Position numbers and translations under genes: made by a program. DNA of 64,000 nucleotides from Prochlorothrix hollandica PCC 9006 = CALU 1027 (GTDB lineage Bacteria > Cyanobacteriota > Cyanobacteriia > Prochlorotrichales > Prochlorotrichaceae), in contig NZ_KB235941.1 in the NCBI RefSeq assembly GCF_000332315.1, forward strand, positions 175,438 to 239,437. Direction: 5' to 3'. Numbering within the stretch: the stretch's first letter is position 1; every line of letters starts with the position of its first letter. The notes below the pieces were generated by a model. That model was not told where the DNA came from, ran no database searches, and saw only the letters and a list, made by a program, of their open reading frames with translations. Below, one piece after another: positions 60,171-61,835 of the stretch.

Positions 60171-61358
60171 ATGGCCCTCGACTTTCGCTTTGCCATCATC
60201 GGCGATCCCCACATTGGACTGCCCCACACCATTTGGGACAACCCTAGCCGCTTCCACCTCATCGAAGTCAGCATTCCTGCCCTGGAAATTGCCCTAGAGC
60301 ACATCGACCAATGGGGCGTTGATTTTTTGCTGATACCGGGGGATTTAACCCAACATGGGGAAGCCGAAAACCACCGTTGGCTGGCGGAACGCCTCGGTCA
60401 ATTGCCCTTTCCCACCTATGTCGTTCCCGGCAACCATGACATCGTGCAGCGGGAAGCCGATGGTCAGCGCATTGGTCTCCAGGAGTTTCCCCAGTACTAC
60501 CGCAACTGTGGCTATGGTGACGGCGATCGCTCCTACTATCACCAGGAAATCCTGCCAGGGGTCCACCTGATCGGTCTCAACTCCAACCAATTTGATGCCG
60601 ATGGCCAATTGCAGCGACGGGGATCGATCGATGGGGAACAACTGCACTGGTTGCACCACACCCTCAAAGACTGCGGCGATCAGTTGGTGTTGTTGATGGT
60701 GCACCATAATGTTTTGGAGCATTTGCCGGATCAGGGCCAGCATCTCCTAGGGCAACGTTATTTATTGGCCAACAGCGCCGATCTCTTAGCCGCACTGCCG
60801 ACGGGTCGGGTGCCCCTCATTTTCACCGGCCATCTCCATGTCCAGGATCTGGCCCAATCCCCCAACACCGATCCCTGCCGCTGGGAGTTAACTACCGGTT
60901 CCCTGGTGAGCTACCCCCACCCCTATCGTCTCTGCCAGTTTCACCAAGACCCAACGGGCCAGTGCCACCTGGCGATCCAATCCCCCCGCATTACCGGGGT
61001 GGAACAGTGGCCCAATTTACAGGATCAATCCCGGCAATGGATGGCCGATCGCAGTCCCGCCTTTATGGCCCGTCTCCTGATGAGTCCTCCCCTCAACCTG
61101 TCGGAGACCGAAGCCCAACCCCTGATCCCGGATTTACGCTATTTTTGGTCTCAGGTGGCCAATGGCAATCCTGCCTTTGATTTTTCCCATTTTCCAGAAC
61201 CCGCCCGATCCTTCTTCCAGCGGTTCAGTGATACCGACGGCGATCGCTTAAATGATCACCTCAATGATCGCCTCAATGATCACCTCAATGATCACCTCAA
61301 TGACAACGAGGCAACCGTGATCTTCCACCATCCCCACCCCTGCCCTGCCAAACCGTAA
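60171..61358 (+). CDS. CpdA-like metallophosphoesterase
   Basis: 395 residues, calcineurin-like. Motifs: RFAIIGDPHIGLPHTIWDNP, LLIPGDLTQHGEAENHRW, YVVPGNHDIV, LLMVHHNVLE and LIFTGHLHVQD. These are the dinuclear metal ligands. The type is close to cyclic-nucleotide phosphodiesterases (CpdA); the substrate is inferred only. The C-terminus (about 360-380) has repeats LNDHLND from a 12-bp tandem DNA repeat. A family C element is inserted directly at the stop codon, so part of it is duplicated on the far side (see findings). Confidence 0.82.
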   Translation: MALDFRFAIIGDPHIGLPHTIWDNPSRFHLIEVSIPALEIALEHIDQWGVDFLLIPGDLTQHGEAENHRWLAERLGQLPFPTYVVPGNHDIVQREADGQRIGLQEFPQYYRNCGYGDGDRSYYHQEILPGVHLIGLNSNQFDADGQLQRRGSIDGEQLHWLHHTLKDCGDQLVLLMVHHNVLEHLPDQGQHLLGQRYLLANSADLLAALPTGRVPLIFTGHLHVQDLAQSPNTDPCRWELTTGSLVSYPHPYRLCQFHQDPTGQCHLAIQSPRITGVEQWPNLQDQSRQWMADRSPAFMARLLMSPPLNLSETEAQPLIPDLRYFWSQVANGNPAFDFSHFPEPARSFFQRFSDTDGDRLNDHLNDRLNDHLNDHLNDNEATVIFHHPHPCPAKP

Positions 61359-61360
61359 AG

Positions 61361-61738
61361 GTAACTACAGCAGTCCGAAATGGGTCGTGTGGTGTGCGCC
61401 CTCCGGGCGCACACCACACCAAGGGTTTCAGCCATCGAGAGCCTTACAACTGATTTAGGATTGCTGTATTCAGGGGGAAAGTGAGTAGGGTTTCAGCCCC
61501 ACGATCGCCGGTCAGGACTGTCTCAAAGGGGTTCAGTTTACTGGGGAACCCTCGACCTCGGGTAGGGTTCTTGCCCCCGTGCCGACCCTCTTGGCGACCC
61601 ACAGCCGGGGCAACCACGGGGGGATTGCCCCTACCAAAATCGGTGCCCCCCCAGTGACATGGACCCTCTCCAATCGCCTAGGGTTTTTTGTCTAGAGTCT
61701 GAAACCCTCATTCTCCTGTGACCCCCTGAATAATTACA
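61361..61738 (+). mobile_element. Family C element interrupted by a family A element, 9-bp target duplication
   Basis: GTAAC at 61361-61365, then family A at 61366-61468, then TTCAGGGGG continues the family C element to TAATTAC at 61738. Perfect direct repeats ACCGTAAAG at 61352-61360 and 61739-61747 flank it. The left copy includes the TAA stop of the metallophosphoesterase gene. Confidence 0.88.
61366..61468 (-). mobile_element. Family A element, copy 11 (nested in family C)
   Basis: TA at 61366-61367 and 61467-61468. Removing the element and one TA restores GTAACTATTCAGGGGG exactly. Confidence 0.9.
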
Positions 61739-61740
61739 CC

Positions 61741-61835
61741 GTAAAGCTGGTCAGCCGTAGAGCTTGCCAGCCGTAGAGCTTGCTAACTGTAGAGCTTGTT
61801 AACCGTAAAGCTTGCTAACCGTAAAGTTTGCCAAC
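61741..61835. repeat. 18-bp tandem repeat (CGTAAAGCTTGCTAACC), 5 units
   Basis: Imperfect units starting at or near the right target duplicate of the family C element (ACCGTAAAG is part of the unit). Confidence 0.85.

Follow-up and report, generated by a model that had tools for sequence, protein, structure and literature searches.

At the 3' end of a metallophosphoesterase gene of Prochlorothrix hollandica PCC 9006, two short repeats, here called family A and family C, lie one inside the other. How did this arrangement come about: was it built in place by two separate insertions, or did a ready-made A+C unit land next to the gene? The locus belongs to a window of 64,000 nucleotides (the whole stretch of DNA that was analysed) from a genome of 5.65 Mb in 13 contigs. 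A first-pass annotation of the window had proposed that C came first, with a 9-bp duplication at the stop codon of the gene, and that A followed at a TA. We arrive at the same order, and give a probability of about 0.9 to the reading that C inserted first with a 9-bp duplication and that A then entered it in place at a TA, rather than being inherited together with six similar copies elsewhere in the genome. The features of the locus, in window positions, are as follows.

60171-61358, forward strand: gene for a calcineurin-like metallophosphoesterase, 395 aa (open reading frame list; Pfam PF00149, 55.7 bits)
61352-61360, forward strand: left 9-bp target duplication, ACCGTAAAG (direct reading)
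61361-61367, forward strand: left tip of family C (GTAAC and the TA target of A), cut off by A from the rest of the inverted repeat
61366-61468, forward strand: family A, a 103-bp IS630-type MITE including both TAs, with the ends TACAGCAGTCC and GGATTGCTGTA
61387-61419, forward strand: central perfect hairpin of A, with 15-bp arms at 61387-61401 and 61405-61419
61467-61737, forward strand: remaining part of family C, beginning with the TA; right end CCCCCTGAATAATTAC; 279-bp subfamily
61598-61641, forward strand: GC-rich core in C, GGGGCAACCACGGGGGGATTGCCCC, which resembles a repeat of other cyanobacterial genomes
61738-61746, forward strand: right 9-bp target duplication, ACCGTAAAG (direct reading)
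61738-61836, forward strand: 16-bp tandem array of 6.2 units

The block between the two copies of ACCGTAAAG occupies positions 61361-61737. The general anatomy described in the first-pass annotation stands, with two corrections: the span ends at 61746 instead of 61747, and the block measures 377 bp instead of 378 bp. The TAA stop codon of the gene (61356-61358) is contained in the left repeat, as had been noted, and is thus preserved. Removal of 61368-61468 gives back GTAACTATTCAGGGGG. That this excision restores the exact left end of C could be verified on the family itself, as 65 of 70 intact solo C copies sampled start with GTAACT. The protein matches its cyanobacterial relatives from the start to approximately residue 360. 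Close to the 3' end of the gene, at 61251-61303, a 12-bp tandem repeat (AATGATCACCTC) encodes an NDHL repeat, and the C-terminus there lies on or past the border of the part common to the relatives.

The empty site predicted for the locus reads ...AAACCGTAAAGCTGG... Matches to the gene were found in 28 of 30 genomes, the own genome included; the others belong to other families and are 47-59% identical. Relatives of the locus were found at four distant cyanobacterial loci. Among these matches there was no orthologous locus free of the insertion.

Family C is a non-autonomous element of approximately 279 or 283 bp. Its end motif has 473 matches in the genome (up to two mismatches, both ends counted), as opposed to 8 for a reversed control pattern, and 80 copies carry both ends exactly at a spacing of about 280 bp. 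The two subfamilies, of 283 and 279 bp, differ by a 4-bp deletion beside the left inverted repeat. The focal copy belongs to the 279-bp subfamily, of which the genome contains 70 left ends (up to three mismatches). With its terminal inverted repeats (GTAACTATTCAGGGGG and CCCCCTGAATAATTAC) and a near-constant duplication, C has the makeup of a MITE derived from a DDE transposon. We looked for an autonomous partner at 14 matches to PF01609 (DDE_Tnp_1) and in their 1.5-kb flanks, and found no enclosing pair of C ends there.

The GC-rich core of C recurs outside this species. Stretches of 33-41 bp with 93-100% identity are present in four other genomes, and longer matches of 77-79% in a fifth. Five of the 290 other genomes of the class thus gave a match, in each case to the core, with up to two candidates scored per genome, so that short A-like or C-like ends would be missed; A+C has no match in 72,556 plasmid records. 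Since the core matches other cyanobacterial genomes, a repeat common among cyanobacteria may have been captured by C or have served as the nucleus on which C was built. Internal duplications around the core, and no A, are present in three C copies of 375-390 bp: L070 (C1:93692-94066), L079 (C4:327752-328141) and L094 (C9:1253333-1253707). At another place (L096, approximately C12:103386-105115), two adjacent pairs of small ORFs lie between C ends. By eye they look like antitoxin/toxin pairs, in which a putative DUF433-like frame is followed by a putative DUF5615-like one.

Family A is a short element that forms a strong hairpin (-60.5 kcal/mol, z -8.9), with no ORF of at least 60 aa listed inside it. 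In 360 kb of evenly placed stretches chosen regardless of A we counted 26 pieces, 23 of them near-full copies, which extrapolates to about 400 pieces and about 360 near-full copies per genome. A TA is found at both ends in 81 of 89 near-full copies. The restoration of the empty site in C also supports a duplication of the TA by A.

The ends of A are shared with an IS630-family element of the same genome. Matches to this family occur at four genome places, and the element measures 1177 bp in L155 (L155:908-2084). Its pieces are 97-99% identical; the L155 copy has an open frame of 382 codons, one copy is split by extra sequence and another has a non-aligning stretch. Over 23 bp at the left end focal A departs from the element once, and over 27 bp at the right end four times. 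The encoded DDE transposase scores 165 bits against NCBIfam NF033545 (cut-off 100) and 61 bits against PF13358. From the like ends, together with a protein above the IS630 cut-off, we infer that this transposase likely moves A in trans.

The focal locus is not the only one where A sits in C. A whole-genome pattern for the inner junction finds A in C at exactly the same TA at seven places: the focal locus, C3:89333, C1:767901, C1:1044884, C5:22700, C1:1521025 and C1:522236. The order of the two insertions could thus, taken alone, be inherited from a travelling composite: A would have entered one C once, elsewhere, A+C would have spread as a unit, and the focal locus would be one of its landings. 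The identical junction at all seven places speaks for this account, as do the common orientation of A in six of them, the membership of all seven in the 279-bp subfamily and the exact 8-9-bp flanking repeats of three. Against it, A is reversed at the same TA in C1:522236. The 6/7 orientation bias is not significant (P 0.125). A point against our own reading is that only three of the seven have exact 8-9-bp repeats: of the remaining four, the left tip is altered in one, a repeat is absent from another, and no right end could be located in two.

A single composite should leave the nested copies together in the trees of both parts. With 83 copies of C and 89 of A aligned, the A and C parts of the nested copies scatter among the solo ones. 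A single clade of nested copies is rejected in the C tree (AU p 8e-9) as well as in the A tree (AU p 0.003). Without the damaged copies (C1:1520768, whose right end is damaged, dropped from the C set, and C5:22709, in which 14 bases are deleted, from the A set) the AU p values are 6e-7 for C and 0.017 for A, and with only the remaining same-orientation copies 2e-5 and 0.019. The best trees imply six label changes for C and seven for A, of which four and three, respectively, are forced by well-supported branches. Because A is short, support is confined to few branches of its tree, and the AU values obtained from it are moderate.

Pairwise distances give the same picture. The mean A-A distance within the seven nested copies is not smaller than among random A copies (P 0.20), nor is their mean C-C distance smaller than in the 279-bp subfamily (P 0.85). 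Nested A copies differ from each other by 3 to 13 substitutions, yet two solo copies, C1:212452 and C7:296710, are a single substitution away from focal A (the other six nested A are 5 to 12 away), and another nested A shows no substitution relative to four solo copies. Focal C is at least 17 substitutions from each of the other 82 aligned C copies; taken as sequence distances, these values would fit a C that is older than the A within it. The C copy C1:1047136, which contains no A, is a near-twin of the nested copy C1:1044621 (4 substitutions, about 2.5 kb apart), whose outermost five bases are altered. One pair points the other way: the C parts of C3:89070 and C1:1520768, both nested, lie close to each other, though their A parts are 11 substitutions apart.

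The trees and distances together indicate that A entered C at the left TA several times, and that at the focal locus it did so in place, separately from the other six. At least three or four of the nested insertions are independent, probably six or seven. The proposed order, C first and then A at a TA, holds for the focal locus, and a travelling composite, rejected by the phylogenies of both parts, is very unlikely to account for it.

The reverse nesting also occurs. At C9:1314749 (L016, C9:1314677-1315171), a C copy lies inside A, flanked by a 9-bp repeat with one mismatch; the host A is fused to a second A via a single shared TA. Given this one clean case, the two families were apparently active over partly the same period.

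A different doubt concerns the insertion of C itself. When the flanks are joined without the block, the 16-bp array grows from 6.2 to 6.5 units, from which it follows that C landed in the first unit of the array. The right 9-mer is also the first unit of that array and ACCGTAAAG recurs within it, further to the right, which makes the 9-bp repeat at this single locus a weaker proof than it seems. It could be a leftover of the array and not a target duplication, produced for instance by an insertion with a 7-bp deletion.

The solo copies of C allow this to be judged. Exact flanking repeats of 9 bp were found in 24 of the 70 copies and of 8 bp in seven (31/70 together). One further copy has 7 bp, seven come within one mismatch of an 8- or 9-bp repeat, and the other 31 lack a good repeat. 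After shuffling of the right flanks among the copies, 8-9-bp repeats appear in 71 of 14,000 rows, about the number expected from flanks shuffled back onto their own partner. The 9-bp duplication is thus a property of the family, which removes most of the doubt that the array casts on the focal locus, and the earlier claim of a C insertion with a 9-bp duplication gains support from outside the locus. Nine is the usual length (24 of the 31 exact cases), and both 9-mers abut the element ends exactly; an array leftover is very unlikely. The first-pass annotation had counted two independent mobility signatures here; this is correct for the focal locus, with the reservation that the duplication of C sits in a tandem array.

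Also very unlikely is an ancient composite with turnover, in which the 279-bp subfamily began as A+C, most of its copies lost A precisely and its A seeded the A family: all seven nested copies do fall in this subfamily (about 70 of about 236 left ends; chance about 2e-4, noticed post hoc), but dozens of precise excisions restoring CTATTC would be required, nearly all A diversity would have to descend from C-borne copies, and the subfamily looks older than the 283-bp one (median nearest-neighbour distance 5.2% vs 1.8%, a comparison biased by the sampling of 283-bp copies by likeness to the focal sequence). A greater age of the 279-bp subfamily, with more time for insertions, would explain the 7/7 bias.

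The history of the locus by in-place nesting is then most likely the following. C, an element of about 280 bp, transposed into the first unit of the array, where the phosphoesterase gene ends, and in doing so made a 9-bp duplication that takes in the stop codon. Because the duplicated 9 bp include the stop, the protein was left unchanged. The 103-bp hairpin MITE A later inserted at the TA six bases inside the left end of C, duplicating this TA. All but 7 bp of the left inverted repeat of C were thereby shifted 101 bp from the tip, presumably rendering this C copy immobile.

Repeated entry of A at one position raises the possibility of a preferred target. Seven A hits in C lie at the left TA, compared to one clean hit elsewhere (C3:63752), although a C copy has about ten TAs, about nine of them besides the left one. 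That single interior hit (L106, C3:63752-63854) uses a TA that apparently arose by a C-to-T change, as compared by eye. If all TAs were equal, about 0.45 chance hits would, by our estimate, be expected at the left TA genome-wide (P of at least seven, 5e-7); on the assumption that only a quarter of TAs are tolerated, the expectation is about 1.8 (P 0.003). Within C, seven against one clean hit gives P 1e-6, and inclusion of three doubtful junctions (7/11) gives 3e-5. All of these contrasts are post hoc, and they count the seven as independent events.

The two sides of the contrast also come from different searches. The seven were found with a whole-genome pattern, while hits elsewhere were tallied from sampled stretches (155 C pieces and 8 more). 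A whole-genome search for long C copies with both ends exact gave eight hits, namely three left-TA insertions, three internal duplications and two with unread bases. Of 23 rows, those not counted as clean include a truncated C with A lying at the break (C4:8250), truncated-A junctions (C1:1250746 and C5:855073), C in or beside a partial A, and A merely beside C. One further A flush beside a C end in the 360-kb stretches was likewise not counted.

We also asked whether the target preference of A accounts for the left-TA excess by itself, and conclude that it does not. The preference is weak: C-TA-(G/T) occurs at 23 of 74 A sites outside the C left end, compared to 15% of background TAs. The left TA of C has a preference percentile of 0.72 or 0.87, depending on orientation, which is near the best of the ten TAs in focal C. 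It is not unique in this, with 0.75 at position 232 and 0.86 at position 171. With each hit, A comes to stand between the tip of C and the remainder of that terminal repeat, so A may silence C. It is conceivable, if rather doubtful, that the left TA is a true A hotspot and that A silences C time and again, in which case one mobile family would keep another in check. Given the post hoc contrast and the unequal completeness of the searches, we hold the hotspot as a lead.

The focal locus provides a clean case, with a readable order, of a bacterial MITE nested in another, and comparison of the trees of the two parts tells in-place nesting from a travelling composite. The analysis also points to the transposase that likely moves A. 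That a single terminal-repeat TA was used repeatedly is a modest lead on target choice by IS630-type elements and on the disabling of one mobile family by another.

A resembles IS630-family MITEs in having a TA on both sides and in the likeness of its ends to an IS630-family element of its own genome, and may have a named relative among them. Nezha elements are reportedly abundant, short and bounded by inverted repeats in a cyanobacterial genome; A and C are likened to them by description only. Our search of the open-licence literature for nested MITEs in cyanobacteria and other bacteria returned nothing directly comparable, which is weak evidence.

The MITEs of Anabaena sp. 90 are likewise abundant, short and bounded by inverted repeats, a likeness of description only. 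They are reported to show no clear similarity to the IS repeats in their own genome (PMC3542288), whereas A has an IS partner. RUP of Streptococcus pneumoniae measures 107 bp, its inverted repeats resemble those of IS630-Spn1, and nesting of small bacterial repeats is already known from pneumococcal RUP and BOX (PMC3049150). The MITE-in-MITE nesting described here is a clear but fairly ordinary case and not a new kind of system. The likeness to RUP/BOX, in another host, is again one of description and not of sequence. In contrast to RUP/BOX, A uses one exact TA in the terminal repeat of its partner seven times, and a single origin of these copies is rejected by the trees.
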